A DNA stretch of 64,000 bases, taken from positions 40,136 to 104,135 of the forward strand of contig CANHVK010000002.1 in NCBI GenBank assembly GCA_947464135.1, given 5' to 3'. Within the stretch, counting starts at the first letter, position 1. Every line of letters starts with the position of its first letter. Both the position numbers and the translations under genes were made by a program. Of the stretch, positions 3,467 through 31,881 are shown one piece after another. Origin of the DNA: Flavobacteriia bacterium (GTDB lineage: Bacteria; Bacteroidota; Bacteroidia; Flavobacteriales_D; Crocinitomicaceae). The notes beneath the pieces are model-generated. The model had not been told where the DNA came from, made no database searches, and saw only the letters and a program-made list of their open reading frames with translations.

Positions 3467-4495
3467 ATGTCAAAAGAAGTTAACATAGAAAAATTAAAAG
3501 CACTTCAACTTACAATGGATAAGTTAGATAAAACTTTCGGAAAAGGAAGTGTTATGAAACTAGGAGATTCAGCTATTGAAGAAGTAGAAGTAATACCAAC
3601 CGGTTCTATCACATTAGATTTAGCATTAGGTGTTAACGGATTCCCTAAAGGACGAATTGTAGAAATCTATGGTCCAGAATCATCAGGTAAAACAACGTTA
3701 GCTATTCACGCGATTGCAGAATGTCAAAAAAATGGCGGAATTGCAGCAATCATTGATGCTGAACATGCTTTCGACCAATTTTATGCTAAAAAACTAGGGG
3801 TTGATATCGATAACTTATTAATTTCTCAACCAGATAATGGAGAGCAAGCATTAGAAATTGCGGATAATCTAATTCGTTCAGGTGCAATTGATTTAATCGT
3901 TATAGATTCAGTAGCAGCATTGACTCCAAAAGCTGAGATTGAAGGGGAAATGGGGGATTCTCAAATGGGTTTACAAGCACGTTTGATGTCTAAAGCACTG
4001 AGAAAATTAACAGGTTCTATCTCTAAAGCTAAATGTTCTTGTATTTTCATCAACCAATTAAGAGATAAAATTGGTGTAATGTTTGGAAATCCTGAAACTA
4101 CTACGGGTGGTAATGCATTAAAGTTTTATGCTTCAGTTAGAATAGATATCCGTAAAGCAACTCAATTGAAAGATGGAGAAGAAGTAATCGGAAACCGTGT
4201 AAAAGTAAAAGTGGTAAAAAACAAAGTTGCGCCTCCTTTCAGAAAAGCGGAATTTGATATTATGTATGGTGAAGGTATTTCTAAAGTTGGTGAAATTATC
4301 GATTTAGGAGTTGACTTAAATATCATCAAGAAAAGTGGTTCATGGTTCTCTTATGGTGAAACAAAATTAGGACAAGGTCGTGATGCGGTTAAAAACCTAA
4401 TTCAAGACAATCCAGAATTAATGGAAGAATTGGAAACTAAAATCAAAAGTGCATTGACAAAAGAAGATGCAAAAGAGATTTTAATGAGTGAATAA
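3467..4495 (+). CDS. recA: Recombinase RecA
   Basis: [66 protein letters not shown]. Confidence 0.99.
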
Positions 4496-20438: not shown

Positions 20439-20450
20439 AAATGAATATCA
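20418..20450 (+). repeat. LLM 3'-end repeat, copy A (end of the intact LLM gene)
   Basis: ACTAATCTAATTTAC identical to copies B and C; following ~20 nt similar but diverged. Confidence 0.75.
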
Positions 20451-21457
20451 TTTTGGGTATAGTTTTTTAATATCTTCCTCGATTTCTTTAAGGCTTTGTT
20501 CAAATTCTATTTTTTTGGTTTTTTCTTTAAACTTTAAAAATTCTGTAGAAGATTTTTCTATAGCCATTTGGTGACTAATTTTACCAGCGTGAGTAAGTAT
20601 CTCTCTACCATTTAATTGTAAAAGAGCATCTAAACGCTCAATCCAATCTTTCATATACATAGGTTTATTTTGCTGTGCCATCGTTTCTGCAAAGGCAAGA
20701 TATTGTTCAACTAACAAACCAAGTAATTTCATTTCGTTTTCGTCTAAATAGTTTTTTGCTATTCCGACATCATTTTTTTGAATGTTGTTTGTTCCGTTTT
20801 TATCATATGACTGCATACCTAAAAGTGGTAATTCAGCATCAACTCTTCTGTAAATTAATTCGGCCACTGTTTGTTCACTAATTGCCCAAAGGAGTTTGTT
20901 TTGTACAATTTTAAAAAAGGTGATTGTTTTTCATCTTTAGGATCGTAGTCGATACTTGTTGTGTAAATGTCTTTAATTTTTTGATAAAAGAATTTTTCTG
21001 AAATGCGTATCTCTCGAATACGTTGTTGTAATTCGTTGAAATAATTCATTGAATTTCCCGTTTTAAAACGTTCGTCGTTTAACGCAAATCCTTTAATGAT
21101 ATATTCTTTTAAACGTTGAGTTGCCCAAATACGAAACTGGGTACCTTGCTTGGATTTTACACGGTAGCCAACAGAGATAATTACATCTAAATTGTAAAAT
21201 TCAATATCTCTTTCCACTTCACGATTTCCTTCAATACGAACTTGTCGGAAATTCCGACGAGTTGAAATTTGCTCCAATTCCTCCTCTTTGTAAATATTAG
21301 AAATATGCTCCGTAATAGTGCTTCTACCCTTTCCAAAGAGCGTAGCCATTTGATCTTGTGTAAGCCAAACCGTTTCGTTTTCTAAATGGACGTCTATTTT
21401 GATGTTACCTTCTTGATTTTGATAAATTAATAAATTTGATTCTTTATGAAAATCCAT
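20448..21457 (-). pseudogene. RhuM family protein gene, split by a 1-nt frameshift
   Basis: ORFs 20855-21457 and 20448-20867 are the N- and C-terminal parts of one RhuM-like protein. Adding one T to the T6 run (20913-20918) restores SPFFKIVQNKLLWAISEQTVAELIYRRVDAELPLLGM. Confidence 0.88.
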
Positions 21458-21640: not shown

Positions 21641-22343
21641 TACAATATCAGCCCCTTATTACGCTCAATTCTTTCTTTGGCTTCCACTAACAACTGATGT
21701 AATTTAGCTTCCATTCTTTTCCCAACTCCAAAACAAAATTTTCTAATTCTTGTAAGATTGTTTTTTCTAAATCATTCTCTAGATAGGTGTTTTTCAAATT
21801 CAAAAAATCTAATACATATGGATCTTTAAATGTATTTATCAAATCCGGGTGGGAGTTTGAAAATTGTATATTCGCTAATTCAGTTCTTTCATAAGCTTTT
21901 CGTTGAATTTGATTACGAAGTTCGCGTTTTCCCCATTTTTGTTCAATACAATTTTGCGCATAATATAGTTTTGCTTCTTTTGATTTTAAAGGAAATAACT
22001 CAATAAAATGAGACCAACTCAATTGTGCCGCCAGTGGTGGCAAAATGTTATAGTCTGAAAATTCTTGTGCAAAACGTATCATTCTTCGTACATTTTTCTC
22101 AGTGAAATTTCGTCCGTATTTCATTTCCAATTGTCGTGAGACGGAACTTAGTATTTGCTTTCCATACTCTGCACGTTCATTTTTTAGCTCTTCTTCTTTA
22201 ATACGTTTTCCTACTTTCCAAAAAAGTAACGTCAAGGTACTATTAGCAACTTTTGCAATTTTTTGTTTGCTATCTTCTATCAAGGAAGAAAGTTCTAATA
22301 CAAGATTGGATGTATTAAAAATGGTTTTTTCTGAATCTAACAT
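21640..22343 (-). pseudogene. DUF1016/YhcG family gene with internal deletion of the PD-(D/E)XK nuclease domain
   Basis: N-terminal DUF1016 domain intact (21687-22343), then LGKEWKLNYISC*. Another frame across the junction reads MEAKLHQLLVEAKERIERNKGLIL*, resembling the family's C-terminal tail. Confidence 0.8.
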
Positions 22344-22414: not shown

Positions 22415-24586
22415 TCAATAAAGAACTTTTATAAAAGTACCAATCACTTTCAAGCTAATTGTTTCATCATCGGTCAAAGTTATTGGTTCAAAATCCAATG
22501 TAGATTTTGGTAATAGTTTAATTTCTAGATGAGACCAAGAATCTTCAGAAATGATTTTTTTACTTGAATATTCTTTAATAGTATAATTTCCACCCATTTC
22601 AATATCAGTATAATCTAACATTTCAACTAGCGTAATCAATCCGTTTCTACTACCTCCATTATATTTTTCAAAAAGACAAATTGAATTATTTGGTATTATT
22701 TTATTCATTGATTCCCCAACAACCCTACAAGCAAAATAATTTTCATTTTTATAGGACTCTCCTTCTTCCAATTCTAAATATTGAATTTGAGTAGATTGTT
22801 GATATTCAGAAAAGCTTCCTGCTGAAATTTTTAAATCATAAAATGGAATTGTAAACTCGTTTGGATCATTTAATATTTTTGGGGTATTAATAATTTCTAA
22901 TGGTTGATTTTTTGGCATAAACTTATGAAAATAAGCTCTTAAATTCGGATTACATACATAAAAAAAAGTGCCTTTTATTCCTCTTAAAGATATTGTTCTA
23001 TAAATATTTAATATATAATTCTTTAAAATTAATTCATCGGTTACTGTATTCTTACCTGCTTTATCTTTATATCTTTCTTTATAAATTACGAATGAATTAG
23101 TGTTAAAATCATAATCAAGTTCTGGTCCAATTATTACACCTGTATAATTCAAATCGTATCCTTGAGTTGTGTGTATGCATCCAACTTCATTGATAGAGTT
23201 TGGAGTATTTACCCAATCAACAGCAACACTATTCCACTTTAGTTTTGTTTCATCTATAATAATGTCAAATGCTTTTTCATCTTTATTAGTTAACCATTCC
23301 CATGCATAACCTGCTACTAATCGAGATAAACCATCTATGGATTCCTTTTTATGAATTTCATCAACCATTTGTTGAATATCATCGAATATAAAACATTCAT
23401 AATCTATATTTTGAATTGGATTCGGTGTAGTGTCGTCTGAAAATAATTCACCAATAAAACTTACATATTCATTACCTCCTCTACATCTAAATTGTGTTTT
23501 TAAGGTTTCTTTTCGAGTAAATGGTTGATTTTCTAATTCAATAAACTTTTCTCTTAATGTATCTGATGGTTTAATCGACTGAAATTGGTCATAAAACAAC
23601 AATGTTTTTTTAGATTGGATAAGCAACCAATCAAGTTCTGAAGCATTTAATTTATCCAAACCAAATAAATTACATATATCATCAAATGGCTTAAAGTAAG
23701 GTCCAAGGTTCACTCTTCTCCTTAATCTATGTCCCTCATCAACAATTACTAAATCAAATTTTTGTTTTGCCAAATCTGATGGTCCAATTACCATTTTTGG
23801 TGATAGTCCTTGAATATTTTTAAAAACTTTAGAAATCGTTTTACGAAACGAAGCCATAGGTATTACTAAAGCCATTTGTAAATCGCCATACTTTTGTTTT
23901 ACCAAATTCAATAATTCAAACAATTCTTCAGCTTCTTCTTCAAAGTCAGAAAAGTTAAATGTTTCAATATCTGTTTTTAAAAGCTTAAACAAAAAAATGG
24001 CAAGAATTGATTTACCTGTTCCTGCTCCACCCTGAATAAGTGATACTTTAGCTGAATCATCAAGTAAACAATTAAGTATCAATTTTAAACTTTTTACTTG
24101 TTCTTTTGATAACGATTTATATGGTGAATACTTAAATAAATCAGAATTGTTTATGTGATCTAGAGAATGTCTAGCAATCCCCATAGACCTCAATTCATCC
24201 CAAATATTTTTAAAAAGTTCCCAATAAAGTTCCTTTTGTTGGTAATACTTATGATTAGCAATTCCTAAATTTCCATTTTGCAATTTATACTGACCATCTG
24301 CAGCTATATATCTAATAAGATTTGACTCTAAATCTAACGTTGCTGACTTATTAAAAAAATCACTTACTATTAGATTTACAGTAGAAAGTTTACTTTTTCG
24401 CTCTGTTTTCGAATGAGTTTTCATTCTGTTCAAAACATCCGTAGTCTCTCCAACATAGGCATCTTTTGATGTATTATCATTCAAAAAATAAACCAAAGGC
24501 CAAGTAAGATAATCTCGATGATTATCAAGAATATTTTTCTCTAATTCATTATTAAAAGCGTAATGAGATATCGAAAAATTTTTCAT
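22415..24586 (-). CDS. GIY-YIG + Schlafen-group/DUF2075-type P-loop NTPase (helicase-like) + S24/LexA-like peptidase domain fusion
   Basis: WPLVYFLND..AYVGETTDVLNRMKTH..LESNLIRYI (GIY-YIG); QGGAGTGKSILAIFLFKLL (Walker A); FDLVIVDEGHRLRRR (Walker B); ISAGSFSE...CRVVGESMNKIIPNNS...NYTIKEY...IKLLPKS (S24-like). Confidence 0.85.
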   Translation of the reverse strand: MKNFSISHYAFNNELEKNILDNHRDYLTWPLVYFLNDNTSKDAYVGETTDVLNRMKTHSKTERKSKLSTVNLIVSDFFNKSATLDLESNLIRYIAADGQYKLQNGNLGIANHKYYQQKELYWELFKNIWDELRSMGIARHSLDHINNSDLFKYSPYKSLSKEQVKSLKLILNCLLDDSAKVSLIQGGAGTGKSILAIFLFKLLKTDIETFNFSDFEEEAEELFELLNLVKQKYGDLQMALVIPMASFRKTISKVFKNIQGLSPKMVIGPSDLAKQKFDLVIVDEGHRLRRRVNLGPYFKPFDDICNLFGLDKLNASELDWLLIQSKKTLLFYDQFQSIKPSDTLREKFIELENQPFTRKETLKTQFRCRGGNEYVSFIGELFSDDTTPNPIQNIDYECFIFDDIQQMVDEIHKKESIDGLSRLVAGYAWEWLTNKDEKAFDIIIDETKLKWNSVAVDWVNTPNSINEVGCIHTTQGYDLNYTGVIIGPELDYDFNTNSFVIYKERYKDKAGKNTVTDELILKNYILNIYRTISLRGIKGTFFYVCNPNLRAYFHKFMPKNQPLEIINTPKILNDPNEFTIPFYDLKISAGSFSEYQQSTQIQYLELEEGESYKNENYFACRVVGESMNKIIPNNSICLFEKYNGGSRNGLITLVEMLDYTDIEMGGNYTIKEYSSKKIISEDSWSHLEIKLLPKSTLDFEPITLTDDETISLKVIGTFIKVLY

Positions 24587-24916
24587 TTACAATTGATTAT
24601 ATTTATCAGACTTCCCTTTTGATTTTTCTACCGGGTATTTTTCTGCGTTTTTTTTGATCTTTTCTAAAACGATATTTTCTATATCTAAATCATATTTTTC
24701 AGCAATTAAAAATGCATATGCAAATACATCCGCTAATTCTTCCTTTACCTTCTCTAAATCTGCATCTTCCGGTTTTTTCCAAAGAAATAATTCCAACAAC
24801 TCATTTGCTTCAATACTTAATGCTATTGATAAATCTTTTGGATTATGAAATTGTTCCCAATCTCTTTCGTTTCTAAATGCAATTAATTCATCCGTTATTT
24901 TTTTAAACCCGCTCAT
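24587..24916 (-). CDS. MazG-like nucleotide pyrophosphohydrolase
   Basis: FRNERDWEQFHNPKDLSIALSIEANELLELFLWK...VKEELADVFAYAFLIAEKYDLD; EExxE and ExxD metal-binding pattern. Confidence 0.92.
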   Translation of the reverse strand: MSGFKKITDELIAFRNERDWEQFHNPKDLSIALSIEANELLELFLWKKPEDADLEKVKEELADVFAYAFLIAEKYDLDIENIVLEKIKKNAEKYPVEKSKGKSDKYNQL

Positions 24917-26886
24917 TTATTATTAGATAGTGACAAAGCAATTTTATACTCTTCATCAAATGGTAATTGTAATTCAGATAACATTTCTGGTAATGCAATA
25001 GCCCAACTTACATAGTAATATGCTAAAATATGATAGCCAGAAAATGTTTTGTTTTTAATTTTTGAAATTCGATAATTATTTTTTTCAGGAGAAAAACCTT
25101 GAGTACCTTGCATTGCAATTTCAAGAGCAATCTCTTTAACCTCATTTTTTGACATTGAATTAAAGTACTCAAGAGCATCGACCATAAACATAGCTACAGC
25201 CATATTTACACCTATTGCTTCTTGATTTTTTAAAAAAGCCTCAATTTCTTTTTCTCTCTCAGGGTCAGGAGTGTTTATCCCATAAGGGTCATTCTCAATA
25301 GATTCTAAAATTGAATTTAAATCAGAATTTTTTAAATTATAACTTGATTCAGAGACTAATTCAAAATATTCGCCCAGTTTCAAGTCTTCAGACCAATTCT
25401 TGATTAATTCATATTCTTCGCCTGGTTGTTTATCTTCACTATATTCTAAATACTCATTATACAACTCATTAGCTTGATTTAATTCACTTTTTGTTGCTTT
25501 ATAAAAACTGATAAAATCTATCCCAAATAAGTCTTTAAATTGCAAAGCACCAATTATATTGTAAATCTTACTTTTAGATAAAATTGATTTTGGTGAAAGC
25601 TCAATTATTTTATCGTTGGTGACTGCTTGTATTCCTTCTTCGATTAAATTCAATAAGGAAATGAATTGAAAAGGTTTTAATTCATTAAAACTTTTGAATA
25701 AAAAATCTTCTATGAATAAATCAATCGGTGCATTGAAAATTTGTCTATTTATACCGTGAAATAACTCAATGGTATATTTTGTAATACTCTCATCGGGAAT
25801 GCCTAATTTCTCTAATTTTTGTAAATCACTTTTGATACTTTTCAAAAATGTATTTTGATGACTCTGATTGGAAATAAAAAGCATATTAGCATCTATTTGT
25901 CTTGCTTTAGTAGCAAAATCTAAATGCACTAATTCATGCATTATTAAATGTTCTACCGCTTTATAACTTGGCTTATATTTTACTAAATGCTTTTCCCGAT
26001 TATAATTTTCAGCAAATTCAAATTTTGCAGCAGTCTGAATTTCATCATCTTTAATTATTTCGATTAATTTATCACACTCAAATTCTAATTTACTTTTGTA
26101 ATTATTAATCAAATTAGAAACATCTGTTGTATCCATGATTTTTTTAGCAACATCAGTTGTGTGATTGAACGCATTACTAAAAAATCCATCTCTAACATTA
26201 CATAACTTTAAAGTGTTTAAACCAAATTCAAAAGATGCAACTAAATCACCTTCCATTTCATAAGTTAGACTTAATGCATAATGCGTATTAGGGTATTTAT
26301 TATCTATTTTTAGTGCTTGATTGAAGTACAACTTAGCTTCTTCAGTTTTCCCTTGTTGCATAAGATTTGCACCAATATTATTTATTGTAATATTGTCGTT
26401 TGGATTAACTGCTAATGCTTGATCATAATATTTCATTGCAGTTGGAATATCTGACTTGAATTTTGAAAAGATATTTCCCATCATTAGCAGTGCCCATCCA
26501 TTTTTTGAATCCCATCTTAGCGAATCAATCAAAGAATTTATAGCTTCATCTTGATTACCTTCTTCAGAATATATTTGTCCCATTATTCTATGGTATTCAG
26601 AATTTGTGGGATTAGCTTTAATTAATGAACTTAGTATAGGTTTTGCTTCTTGGAAGTTACCTTTTTCACATAAAGCTACAGTTTTTCTAAATTCAACTTC
26701 TTGATTAATAATTGAATTAACATCAATTTCAATTGTTACCCAATTATCTTTAATCGTTACGTTAGGTGTAAATGGGCCAGATTTATAATACTCTTTTAAA
26801 GTATTAATTATCAAATCATTACCCCCCCCTGTTAATTCAGGAAAAATTGTAAATAAAAACTCGTCTATTTTATGCGAAATAATCAT
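24913..26886 (-). CDS. TPR-repeat protein with HExxH metallopeptidase-like motif
   Basis: TPR-like repeats (NSEYHRIMGQIYSEEGNQDEAINSLIDSLRWD; NITINNIGANLMQQGKTEEAKLYFNQALKID); EHLIMHELVHLDFATKARQIDAN with HELVH at residues 317-321. Confidence 0.8.
   Translation of the reverse strand: MIISHKIDEFLFTIFPELTGGGNDLIINTLKEYYKSGPFTPNVTIKDNWVTIEIDVNSIINQEVEFRKTVALCEKGNFQEAKPILSSLIKANPTNSEYHRIMGQIYSEEGNQDEAINSLIDSLRWDSKNGWALLMMGNIFSKFKSDIPTAMKYYDQALAVNPNDNITINNIGANLMQQGKTEEAKLYFNQALKIDNKYPNTHYALSLTYEMEGDLVASFEFGLNTLKLCNVRDGFFSNAFNHTTDVAKKIMDTTDVSNLINNYKSKLEFECDKLIEIIKDDEIQTAAKFEFAENYNREKHLVKYKPSYKAVEHLIMHELVHLDFATKARQIDANMLFISNQSHQNTFLKSIKSDLQKLEKLGIPDESITKYTIELFHGINRQIFNAPIDLFIEDFLFKSFNELKPFQFISLLNLIEEGIQAVTNDKIIELSPKSILSKSKIYNIIGALQFKDLFGIDFISFYKATKSELNQANELYNEYLEYSEDKQPGEEYELIKNWSEDLKLGEYFELVSESSYNLKNSDLNSILESIENDPYGINTPDPEREKEIEAFLKNQEAIGVNMAVAMFMVDALEYFNSMSKNEVKEIALEIAMQGTQGFSPEKNNYRISKIKNKTFSGYHILAYYYVSWAIALPEMLSELQLPFDEEYKIALSLSNNK
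26822..26829. repeat. C8/G8 mononucleotide tract within codons ~20-23 of the TPR-HExxH gene
   Basis: Plus-strand ACCCCCCCCT; coding strand ACA GGG GGG GGT. Confidence 0.95.
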
Positions 26887-27135: not shown

Positions 27136-28149
27136 TTAAAATTTTTGATTAAAAGTATCTTGGATATTTTGCACTATCTCTATCACTTCAGAAAAAGTAG
27201 GTGCCACTCCAGACATCATTTCTCTCGCCATTTCTTCATAGTCACTTTTTAATTTTAATAATATAGATTCCTCAGGTATAATTGCAATTTGTCCAACGCA
27301 AAGTGTATTATAATCAAAATGTCTAAGTCGAGAATAGGATTTCCGATGTTCAATGATTTCTTTAATAAATGGAATGTCAACGAGTGTGTTTGAATATCCT
27401 TTATAAAGGCGATACAAGTCGTAATAATGTCGAGACATTCGCTTTGTTCTCATTTTGCTCTCATCCTCTCGGTTGTATTCTTCATGAAGTAATAGAATTT
27501 TTTCAATAAACGTTCTATTAGGATGGATGGTAGTAACTAGAAAAGTCTCTTCCTCATAAATAGCATTGGGAAAATAGGAGTTTAAAAGTGTTTGCATTTC
27601 CCTACTTTCATTCGGATCTTTCTGTGAACGTACACTAAATTCTATTTTTACCCTATCTGGTAAATAGGGATTAGGATCAAATAAAGATTTGTAATTCACG
27701 TATATTGTTTGAGGATCTGTGTCTGGCATATCTTTTCGTACTGCTTCTACTTCTATCGAAAAAAACAGTTTTGGAATTTGAAATTTTTCAAACTGATTTA
27801 GCATCTCTTTAGCAATTTCATTGCTCGTAAACAAACAACCTTCTCGTCGCAATTGCTCTACAAAAGTTTTTGACGGCTTATCTTTATAGGATATCCCAAA
27901 AGCCTCGGAATTTAAAGCTACATCTATGTCTTCAGAAAATCGGTCAATAATACCCCAACCCTTACTCAAAGAAGTTCCTCCTTTAAATGCAAAATATGAT
28001 GCATATTTAGAAGTAAACAACATTTTTAATACAAGCGTTACCCACCAATCTTTCTCTATTGCTTTTGGGGTTATTCCTGATTGCAATGAAGCTTGATTCA
28101 ATGAGATTCTACGCGCATTATCATCCAGTTTTTGAATCCATCCAATCAT
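27136..28149 (-). CDS. AbiEii/AbiGii-type nucleotidyltransferase toxin
   Basis: AIEKDWWVTLVLKMLF, FKGGTSLSKGWGIIDRFSEDIDVAL. Confidence 0.93.
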   Translation of the reverse strand: MIGWIQKLDDNARRISLNQASLQSGITPKAIEKDWWVTLVLKMLFTSKYASYFAFKGGTSLSKGWGIIDRFSEDIDVALNSEAFGISYKDKPSKTFVEQLRREGCLFTSNEIAKEMLNQFEKFQIPKLFFSIEVEAVRKDMPDTDPQTIYVNYKSLFDPNPYLPDRVKIEFSVRSQKDPNESREMQTLLNSYFPNAIYEEETFLVTTIHPNRTFIEKILLLHEEYNREDESKMRTKRMSRHYYDLYRLYKGYSNTLVDIPFIKEIIEHRKSYSRLRHFDYNTLCVGQIAIIPEESILLKLKSDYEEMAREMMSGVAPTFSEVIEIVQNIQDTFNQKF

Positions 28150-28757
28150 ACTCTTTGTTTTAAAAAGTTCTTAATGACAAAATCACTTATTCTTGCAGGT
28201 GCTAATTTCAAATCATATTTCAGCTTTTTAGGATCTTCCTTTTTAAGTAAACTGATAATTTTTTCCATCTCAGATTCACTAAGCTGTGATAAATCCAATT
28301 CCTCTAATCCCACAAATAACAAACTTGATATTGAACCTATCATTGCTAATTTTTTGGTTGTAGTAGGCTGGAATACTAGTGCATTTTTTCCAATGACGAT
28401 ATTTTTCTTAGTTCCATTCGTTAAAAAAACCATTTTCATTGGAATTTGCGTTGAGAGTCCAATTTTGTTTAACGCAAACAGACCAGTAGGCATAATTTTA
28501 ACGTGTTCTTTTTTCGCTAATAACACAGCTATTTCTTCTATCGATGGAAGTACATCGCCAAATACCTTATCTTTAATAGGAATCACATAAATACCTTGTC
28601 CCATACGAACTAAGACTTTCTGCTCAACTAATCGCGAAAGTGCTTTCCTAATGGCTGTTGAAGTACCTAAGTCTTTAAAGTCGGAAGGTAAAATTAATTT
28701 ACCTGGTTTCGATCGCTTAACCTTAGATTCAATTTGGTTGTAAATTGACGCTTCCAT
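28146..28757 (-). CDS. AbiEi/DUF6088-like antitoxin/transcriptional regulator
   Basis: Winged-HTH-like N-terminus (LPSDFKDLGTSTAIRKALSRLVEQKVLVRMGQGIYVIP); 4-nt overlap with the AbiEii gene; ATG at 28757 preferred. Confidence 0.88.
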   Translation of the reverse strand: MEASIYNQIESKVKRSKPGKLILPSDFKDLGTSTAIRKALSRLVEQKVLVRMGQGIYVIPIKDKVFGDVLPSIEEIAVLLAKKEHVKIMPTGLFALNKIGLSTQIPMKMVFLTNGTKKNIVIGKNALVFQPTTTKKLAMIGSISSLLFVGLEELDLSQLSESEMEKIISLLKKEDPKKLKYDLKLAPARISDFVIKNFLKQRV

Positions 28758-28771
28758 ATCACGAATATACA

Positions 28772-28812
28772 AATAATTGTGACAAAAAAATATTCATTAT
28801 GTCACAATTATT
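28772..28812. promoter_or_regulatory. Inverted repeat AATAATTGTGACA-N15-TGTCACAATTATT upstream of abiEi-like gene
   Basis: Perfect 13-bp arms at 28772-28784 and 28800-28812. Confidence 0.85.
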
Positions 28813-28883: not shown

Positions 28884-30416
28884 TTACCTTCCAAAAACAT
28901 CTTTGTATATCTCTTCAATCTGAATAATTTCCGTATCAGTTAATACTTGAAACTCTTTTGCTTTCGCGCGATTAGAAAACTGACCATTATTTTGTTCTAA
29001 AAAATTGACTAACAACGAAATCATTCGATCAGGCATTTCTACTACTTGTTCAAGCTGTTTTTTAAACGTATCAAACGCTTGTAAATAATTGATTTCTTCT
29101 GGAATGACACGATCTAATGTATCTTGCACACAATCATATAAAAACTCAGCTTGTTTGGTAGCATCAAAATAACGATAATAGTCAATCGTTTCATTGATAA
29201 CCTCCACATTGTGATCTTCTGTTTCTGTCCAATCAATAAAATCTAAAATAGAGTGAGAATACGTTTCCAACACTTTTCTATAATCATCTATATGATCTAA
29301 AATAGAAGCTGAAATCGGAAAGATGATGCCCTGTTGTGAGAATTTTTGTTTCGCAAGAATATGATGAATCAGGTAACGGTGTAATCGACCATTTCCATCT
29401 TCAAATGGGTGAATAAAAACAAAACCAAAGGCAATCACAGCCGCCGAAAGAACTGCATCATAGTTGTTTTCTAATAAATTATTGGTTGTAAGTAATCCAT
29501 TCATTAACAAATCAATGTCTTGCCATTTAGCAGAAATATGTTCTGGCAAAGGCATTCCCGTTTCTCGATCATGTTCACCAACAAAGCCTCCCTTTTTTCG
29601 AAATCCGAAGGTTACAAAACGGTTTCCTTCTAAAATGATTTGTTGCAGTCGTAGCAATTCTTCTTTATTTAAACTATTTGCACCTGCCTGACCAATCGCT
29701 TTTCCCCATCTAACAGCACGATTCGTCGGTGGCGTTTCTCCCTCGATCGTGAAAGATGCTTTCGAATCTTTTAATAATAAAAAAGCAGAAGCACGTTGCA
29801 AAACACTCTTTAACACGGAATTCAAATACGTACTATTTACCGCTGATAAATTAGATTGAATGTAATTTTCTAACTTTTCCGTTTTAAAAATTAATGGACA
29901 AAAGTCAACCGTCCCAGGTAAATTATTTATGATACGATGACGAGGAGAGCTTACCCCTTTTATAGCATATTGTATCTTTTCATCGATTAAAGGAACAGCA
30001 TCTTTGATTGTTAAATCAGGAAGATTTAATTTTTTGTTCATTAACCATTCATACAAAAACCATATTTTTCGAGAATACTGTCCGGTTGGTTCTATTTGCA
30101 ATAACTTACAAATTTCTTCTTCAGAAATTTTTAGAAACAGAGATTTAAAAAATAATAAATTAACTCCTTCGTATTTTAAAGCAAATACAAGATGTTTATA
30201 CAAAGTATCCTCAAAAATATTTCTAGATGAAAAAACCCTCCAATCTGCATTTGCATAACTTCTTCGTTTATGACTTATTATTGAAGTTTGAGTAGGATGA
30301 GGAATTGTCAGTTTTAAACCGTGTATTAATGCACTATAACCTACAAGAATACCTTCTTCGGGTGCTTTTTTCCCCTGAAAAACAGTAATTTTTAAAAAAT
30401 AACCTTGACTTTCCAT
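28884..30416 (-). CDS. Fic family protein
   Basis: HPFEDGNGRLHRYLIHHIL Fic motif; SFTIEGE inhibitory-motif-like sequence; ATG at 30416 preferred. Confidence 0.92.
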   Translation of the reverse strand: MESQGYFLKITVFQGKKAPEEGILVGYSALIHGLKLTIPHPTQTSIISHKRRSYANADWRVFSSRNIFEDTLYKHLVFALKYEGVNLLFFKSLFLKISEEEICKLLQIEPTGQYSRKIWFLYEWLMNKKLNLPDLTIKDAVPLIDEKIQYAIKGVSSPRHRIINNLPGTVDFCPLIFKTEKLENYIQSNLSAVNSTYLNSVLKSVLQRASAFLLLKDSKASFTIEGETPPTNRAVRWGKAIGQAGANSLNKEELLRLQQIILEGNRFVTFGFRKKGGFVGEHDRETGMPLPEHISAKWQDIDLLMNGLLTTNNLLENNYDAVLSAAVIAFGFVFIHPFEDGNGRLHRYLIHHILAKQKFSQQGIIFPISASILDHIDDYRKVLETYSHSILDFIDWTETEDHNVEVINETIDYYRYFDATKQAEFLYDCVQDTLDRVIPEEINYLQAFDTFKKQLEQVVEMPDRMISLLVNFLEQNNGQFSNRAKAKEFQVLTDTEIIQIEEIYKDVFGR

Positions 30417-30436
30417 ACACCTCAACAAGAATTAAT

Positions 30437-30506
30437 ATGGAAAAATAGGTATTTTAATGGAAAAAAAGGTACTTTTAGTTATTATTTTGGAAAAATAGTT
30501 ACTTCC
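30437..30506. repeat. Three direct repeats GGAAAAAtAGgTAcTTtt upstream of the Fic gene
   Basis: GGAAAAATAGGTATTTT (30439), GGAAAAAAAGGTACTTTT (30459), GGAAAAATAGTTACTTCC (30489). Confidence 0.75.
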
Positions 30507-31881
30507 CGATACAAAACTTACTGAAAATATTACCCAACAGATCATCCGTACTGATATCACCCGTAATGCTACCTAAATGGAACATTGCTTGTCTGATATC
30601 CATAGCAACGAAGTCACCCGTAATTCCCGTTTCTAAACCGTAATTTGCTTTTTCTAAGGCTTCTGCGGTTTTTTGAAGTTCTTCAACGTGGCGTGCGTTT
30701 GATACAATCACATCTTGTTGTAAGTCCACACCGTGTGTAATTTGATCCACCATCCAAGAAGTCAAACCATCTATTCCTTGACCGGTTAAGGCACTGAGAA
30801 ACAAATGCGGTACAAAATCAACCGAAAGATTGGCAACTAAATCTGCTTTGTTTATGATTAATACAATTTTTTTATCCGGATATGCTGCTTGTAATTCGTT
30901 TGCCCAAGCAGTTACTTCGGCAAGTGTATTCGTTGTGGCATCGGCTAACAATAGCACCAATTGCGCTTGTTGAATTTTTTGTTTAGAACGTTCAATACCA
31001 ATAGCTTCTATTTTGTCTGAGTCTGAATCACTCAGACCTTCACGGATTCCAGCCGTATCAATCAAACGGAATAAAATACCATCAATATTTAAGGTTTCCT
31101 CAATTACGTCTCGGGTAGTACCAGCAATATTGCTTACAATAGCGCGTTCTTCGCCTAATAATTGGTTTAGCAAGGTACTTTTTCCTGTATTTGGCGCACC
31201 CACAATCGCCACTGGAACACCGTTTTTCAAGGCATTTCCTAGTTCAAAAGATTTGATTAATTTTTGAATATAAGCCAATACATCTTGAACCAATTGTTTC
31301 AATTCTGTGCGATCGGCAAACTCTACATCTTCTTCTGAAAAATCAAGTTCTAACTCCACCAAACTCGCAAAGTGAATCAACTTTTCACGTAAATCTCTTA
31401 ATTCATTGGAAAAGGATCCACGCATTTGATTCATCGCCATTTGGTGTGCTCGTTTAGACTGCGAAGAAATTAAGTCAGCCACTGCTTCCGCTTGAGATAA
31501 ATCCATCTTCCCATTCATGAAAGCACGCATCGTAAACTCCCCTGGTTCTGCCATACGACAACCATTGGAAGTTAATAATTGTAATACTTGTTGTTGAATA
31601 TACACCGAACCATGACACGCAATCTCAACAGTTTGTTCACCTGTAAAACTCTTCCCTTCGTGCAACACAGTCACTAATACCTCATCGATGATTTCTTCTC
31701 CTTTGCGAATACGTCCAAAATGAGCGGTATGCGTCGTAACATCCACCAACGATTTAGAAAAAATTGACGACACAATTTCAAAAGCTTTATTTCCCGAAAC
31801 ACGGATTACAGCTATCGCTCCCATCCCATTCGCTGTAGAAAGTGCACAAATTGTATCGTTGTTCTTAACTAAGTAGTTCAT
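30499..31881 (-). CDS. mnmE: tRNA modification GTPase MnmE
   Basis: GAPNTGKSTLLNQLLG, AGTTRDVIEE, DTAGIRE, C-terminal FSKFCIGK. Confidence 0.98.
   Translation of the reverse strand: MNYLVKNNDTICALSTANGMGAIAVIRVSGNKAFEIVSSIFSKSLVDVTTHTAHFGRIRKGEEIIDEVLVTVLHEGKSFTGEQTVEIACHGSVYIQQQVLQLLTSNGCRMAEPGEFTMRAFMNGKMDLSQAEAVADLISSQSKRAHQMAMNQMRGSFSNELRDLREKLIHFASLVELELDFSEEDVEFADRTELKQLVQDVLAYIQKLIKSFELGNALKNGVPVAIVGAPNTGKSTLLNQLLGEERAIVSNIAGTTRDVIEETLNIDGILFRLIDTAGIREGLSDSDSDKIEAIGIERSKQKIQQAQLVLLLADATTNTLAEVTAWANELQAAYPDKKIVLIINKADLVANLSVDFVPHLFLSALTGQGIDGLTSWMVDQITHGVDLQQDVIVSNARHVEELQKTAEALEKANYGLETGITGDFVAMDIRQAMFHLGSITGDISTDDLLGNIFSKFCIGK

Follow-up and report, generated by a model that had tools for sequence, protein, structure and literature searches.

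Self-cleavage by S24 domains is known from repressors and from one polymerase subunit; what, then, is such a domain doing at the end of a nuclease-helicase? The question is raised by a 64,000-nucleotide stretch of a Flavobacteriia bacterium genome (assembly GCA_947464135.1, contig CANHVK010000002.1, positions 40,136 to 104,135; hereafter the window), in which one gene encodes a GIY-YIG nuclease, a Schlafen group 3 (SLFN-g3) helicase and a C-terminal domain that a preliminary description, made from the sequence alone, had taken for a LexA/UmuD-type self-cleavage module. Our analysis confirmed that the S24 domain is a real LexA/UmuD-type fold with an Ala-Gly site and a Ser/Lys dyad. As to its role, we tentatively favour, at somewhat less than even chances, a DNA-damage-triggered self-cleavage switch on a restriction-type defence nuclease-helicase with a MazG-like pyrophosphohydrolase as its partner, the switch being more likely of the OFF than of the ON type.

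The Pfam family Peptidase_S24 (PF00717) covered residues 581-655 of the protein with 27.8 bits (gathering score 23.3). This match lacks the lysine half of the domain because of an insertion, and in a relative fused to HsdR (locus L146) the full profile, positions 1-116, was matched. The domain had been placed at 22415-22830, which is the right location, but it really starts earlier in the protein, near residue 578 (about position 22855). An AlphaFold2 model of the domain, a comparison that the preliminary description had proposed, contained the S24 fold (predicted local distance difference test score, pLDDT, 77; predicted template modelling score 0.72), and its 30 best matches in the PDB by Foldseek were LexA, lambda CI and UmuD, several of them complexed with RecA. 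The cleavage region was modelled with low confidence, and a profile of the domain searched against PDB sequences gave weak LexA matches only.

The numbering proposed for the scissile bond (A589-G590), the nucleophile (S626) and the general base (K671) proved exact in the 723-residue open reading frame, as did the spacings of 37 residues from site to serine and 45 from serine to lysine. Homologues were expected to keep these residues, and in a clade alignment of 94 distinct S24 domains, collected with genome-scan patterns that enforced the serine motif and left Ala589 and Lys671 free, A589, S626 and K671 were each present in 94/94 and G590 in 93/94; relative L038 has a serine at P1'. The Ser-Lys spacing was 45 in all 94 domains, and that from site to serine ranged from 35 to 39. 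Among the 18 most diverse domains, other effector classes included, 20 of 158 positions were invariant, A, S and K being among them (P = 0.002 for three preset positions all falling among the invariant ones). Alignment put the serine and lysine in register with E. coli LexA and with the UmuD of the host; the extra Ser-Lys length forms an 8-residue hairpin extension, located where confidence in the full-length model is lowest (residues 659-664), and a second insertion follows the lysine. Conservation and fold together rule out a chance motif, and the 94 intact dyads rule out a degenerate, inactive S24 domain as the main explanation. Retention of A, S and K in every domain argues for selection that keeps a working site, and the domain very probably cleaves.

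The preliminary description had also called the protein an effector rather than a repressor, in agreement with its N-terminal GIY-YIG nuclease and SLFN-g3 helicase. The former scored 24.6 bits against a cutoff of 22.6 (PF01541), the latter lay above its own cutoff (PF09848), and neither the GIY-YIG residues Y33, Y44, G46, R54, H58 and E87 nor the helicase Walker A motif (G186-K192) and D283-E284 varied in 71 homologues. The full-length AlphaFold2 model reached a pLDDT of 85.7, with residues 659-664 below 50; no PADLOC model and no PDB sequence matched the protein as a whole. Two findings go beyond the preliminary description, namely fusions of S24 to other enzymes and a MazG partner that we call obligate. 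The fusion gene comes second in an operon of two genes; the first encodes a MazG-like pyrophosphohydrolase and was found directly upstream in 71/71 full-length relatives. Given the conserved MazG acidic residues, GIY-YIG residues and helicase motifs, all enzymatic parts of the system look functional.

Among 295 genomes of this order, which were surveyed first, we found 10 more full-length homologues (43-76% identical), and A589, S626 and K671 were present in each. Scanning 85,462 genomes gave 80 loci, mainly in Chryseobacterium, Flavobacterium, Sphingobacterium, Pedobacter and other Bacteroidota, with a few metagenome-assembled genomes labelled proteobacterial or Neomarinimicrobiota also represented; occurrence outside Bacteroidota rests on few records. 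Some loci (L088 7848-8453, L097 3269-4003 and L132) held short fragments of SLFN tail and S24, or split genes retaining S24, possibly decaying copies. A phage or plasmid origin was rejected: plasmid searches with the S24 domain returned a single Halomonas record, and a search with the whole protein, which did not extend to contigs of uncultured viruses, returned no S24-bearing phage. We found no description of an S24-nuclease fusion in the open literature, a search whose coverage largely excluded subscription papers and bioRxiv preprints.

The same S24 domain was found on other restriction-type enzymes. In proteins of about 1120-1160 residues with PLD nuclease, ResIII/helicase and DUF3427 domains it is located after residue 950, and residues 6-947 match the PADLOC model mREase_IV (type IV restriction) end to end with 775 bits; DUF3427 is the C-terminal domain of SauUSI, with a proposed role in substrate recognition (PMC3874153). 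The upstream gene in 6/6 full relatives of this kind encodes a NUDIX protein in place of MazG. In two genomes S24 is carried by HsdR-like proteins (HSDR_N, SWI2/SNF2) within operons of the order HsdM-HsdS-AAA_21-(HNH)-HsdR::S24, that is, complete type I restriction-modification systems. At these loci (L192/L193 with L146/L147) the AAA_21 ATPase gene lies between HsdS and the S24-bearing HsdR, and L146 also has the HNH gene. The Halomonas plasmid encodes an SLFN-g3 helicase with a different N-terminus, which by eye appears PD-(D/E)XK-like (VDFIL...VIVELKQW); its S24 part is frame-shifted, in a record that carries no annotation.

Relatives without S24 are known for the GIY-YIG/SLFN-g3 and DUF3427 kinds, in Bacteroidota and Bacillota, and one genome (G219) has both systems without it; among close DUF3427 proteins in this order, 6 have S24 and 18 do not. 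Since such relatives exist, the effector evidently works without S24, which looks regulatory and is an add-on to effectors. A tree of the S24 domains places the DUF3427 type at two distinct points inside the SLFN type, so the module has passed from one effector to another at least twice. In 9/295 genomes the SLFN-g3 and DUF3427 genes share a contig, a few kilobases apart, and they are also close together in Arenibacter (L126) and in an S24-less gut contig (L158); they appear to belong to a single larger, composite conflict system. With or without S24, NUDIX-PLD/DUF3427 and MazG-SLFN-g3 modules were recurrently near each other (L041, L044, L046, L126, L158). The presence of S24 on at least three further kinds of restriction-type enzyme suggests that these enzymes are turned off (or on) upon damage to the cell's own DNA. 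It may be, though we hold this with somewhat less than even confidence, that S24 is a portable DNA-damage sensor-cutter attached in evolution to four or more unrelated kinds of restriction-type nuclease-helicase (GIY-YIG/SLFN-g3, PD-(D/E)XK-like/SLFN-g3, SauUSI-like PLD/DUF3427 and HsdR), which would provide built-in self-cleavage control of restriction and a new means of avoiding autoimmunity.

The host has a gene for RecA (window 3467-4495) and, elsewhere in its genome (84% complete), a UmuDC operon, whose UmuD, with the cleavage motif ISA/G, was the sole other S24 protein found. LexA scored above the model cutoff in 0/12 related carriers. Bacteroidetes are described as having non-canonical DNA-damage-inducible S24 repressors or regulators in which the cleavage residues are conserved (PMC8565304). 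With RecA and UmuDC in the host and such regulators in Bacteroidetes, stimulation of cleavage at A589-G590 by RecA filaments is what would naturally be expected, and these filaments are probably the trigger. In an undamaged cell the uncleaved protein would be a working ATP-driven restriction-type effector. Damage to DNA, including that inflicted by the enzyme itself, would give rise to filaments of RecA on single-stranded DNA and these would promote the cut. Once parted from S24, the effector would most likely be switched off, which would amount to restriction alleviation built into the enzyme itself; an exposed Ala-rich C-terminal end leading to ClpXP-type proteolysis is one possible means.

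Type I and type IV restriction enzymes need to be active when foreign DNA enters. Because S24 occurs on HsdR and on SauUSI-like enzymes, which would be useful only if active at that moment, an OFF outcome is modestly preferred over ON, at even chances or slightly better. By ending or redirecting the activity of the enzyme at times of damage, a cut would shield the chromosome, much as ClpXP does by acting on the HsdR of EcoKI, a known target in restriction alleviation whose degron was not found (PMC4231737, PMC11109961). Several points weigh against such an OFF switch under RecA control. Restriction alleviation in E. coli is not among the functions of the LexA regulon (PMC11109961). No SOS box of the form CTAA-N5-TTAG was present near the operon, nor did its count in the window exceed chance (GGA-N5-TCC lay outside the search), and SOS-box control of the operon was rejected for want of a nearby box. 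An -AA C-terminal degron was dropped as independent proof of OFF, the ISA/G site being shared by the host UmuD. The S24-less homologues, which resemble the predicted N-terminal cleavage product, would fit an ON switch equally well.

Under that less likely alternative, which was the reading of the preliminary description and still carries real weight, S24, as a dimer like LexA and UmuD, would keep the nuclease-helicase inactive until phage-induced RecA filaments brought about cleavage and so an active effector, in the logic of abortive infection. The product of a cut at A589 would be comparable in extent with the natural S24-less L041 protein (559 residues) and with Bacillota proteins, and UmuD is itself activated by cleavage (PMC8565304); however, HsdR in complete type I operons and SauUSI-like enzymes would gain little from an S24 domain that kept them inactive until SOS. 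LexA-like cleavage outside RecA control does exist, in IrvR (PMC7101444), which also counts against a RecA-dependent switch, and it lends some weight to the improbable idea that the S24 domain responds to another cue: a phage protein, the level of a MazG or NUDIX substrate, or an accessory protease. A candidate for the last is the TPR protein encoded next to the system, which has an invariant HELVH (HExxH) motif and in our sample was found only there; yet its gene accompanies only 4 of the closest relatives and is absent from the clade overall. Least probable, and in our view very unlikely, is that S24 has ceased to cleave in the cell and is retained because it dimerises or binds other proteins. 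The Ser-Lys spacing, 8 residues longer than in LexA and UmuD, and the P1' serine of L038 would suit this, but the extra residues sit in the low-confidence hairpin loop, and a structural role would not require all three of A, Ser and Lys, which are invariant over four effector classes.

Outside its TPRs, the TPR protein had no Pfam match; judged by its motif it is a probable zinc metallopeptidase, possibly an extra trigger or component, and as a core component it was rejected because it is confined to the closest relatives. Other neighbours of the fusion gene are of defence type (an AbiEii-type pair, DUF1016 and RhuM). The RhuM-family gene (20448-21457, minus strand) is broken into two overlapping frames that correspond to parts 1-120 and 136-251 of the RhuM profile, and the DUF1016/YhcG nuclease gene (21687-22343, minus) is shortened within its C-terminal nuclease domain. 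An AbiEii toxin-like gene with a DUF6088/AbiEi-like partner occupies 27136-28772 (minus), and beyond it lie a Fic-like reading frame (28884-30428) and an mnmE-like one (30499-31881), both labelled without a profile scan. The AbiEii/Fic-like region looks like a defence island.

Table 1. Coordinates in the window of the fusion gene, its predicted functional parts and the adjoining genes
Feature	Position	Strand	Basis
GIY-YIG / SLFN-g3 helicase / S24 fusion protein, 723 residues	22415..24586	minus	Open reading frame, Pfam, full-length AlphaFold2 model
GIY-YIG nuclease domain, residues 31-91	24314..24496	minus	PF01541, 24.6 bits
Schlafen group 3 helicase domain, residues 180-545	22952..24049	minus	PF09848, E=1.5e-55
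C-terminal S24 (LexA/UmuD-like) self-cleavage domain, residues 578-723	22418..22855	minus	PF00717, AlphaFold2 and Foldseek, alignments
Predicted scissile bond A589-G590	22817..22822	minus	Residue position, conservation, alignment
Predicted nucleophile S626 (VVGESMN)	22709..22711	minus	Residue position, conservation, alignment
Predicted general base K671 (YTIKEY)	22574..22576	minus	Residue position, conservation, alignment
MazG-like nucleotide pyrophosphohydrolase (PF12643), abuts fusion gene	24587..24916	minus	Pfam; E36, E39, E60, D63 conserved
TPR protein with invariant HELVH (HExxH) motif	24913..26886	minus	Pfam TPRs; alignment of relatives

What sets the present case apart is the fusion of S24 to DNA-cutting effectors, and its repetition. 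If active, the arrangement would tie DNA damage directly to restriction-enzyme activity within a single polypeptide. It would also account for the tolerance of potent restriction enzymes that are non-specific or newly acquired, and would bear on the question of how cells alleviate restriction when their DNA is damaged.

Compared with LexA, lambda CI and UmuD, the protein shares the fold, the Ala-Gly site, the Ser-Lys dyad and a site-to-serine spacing of 35-39, but carries a nuclease-helicase at its N-terminus in place of a DNA-binding helix-turn-helix or a polymerase-binding arm, and has an extra conserved stretch after the lysine (Y-x-S-x-K ... W-x-H). Serine and lysine are 45 residues apart, against 37 in LexA and UmuD; unlike UmuD, it is a 723-residue fusion that lacks the short N-terminal arm and does not lie beside umuC. 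Bacillota DUF2075/SLFN-g3 helicases with GIY-YIG (annotated 'DNA/RNA helicase domain-containing protein') have the same two N-terminal domains at 24-33% identity; they lack S24, and MazG was not seen beside the two examined. SauUSI-type type IV enzymes (PLD-helicase-DUF3427; mREase_IV) with an upstream NUDIX gene (PDC-S07) form a sister system, which often adjoins an SLFN-g3 helicase gene and in some members has the same C-terminal S24; nuclease, motor and partner differ, however, and 18/24 close members in this order are without S24. Type I HsdR under ClpXP-mediated restriction alleviation is likewise a nuclease-motor restriction subunit under proteolytic control, but in E. coli ClpXP acts on HsdR without any S24 domain, whereas the two HsdR-S24 fusions in complete type I operons carry one of their own.
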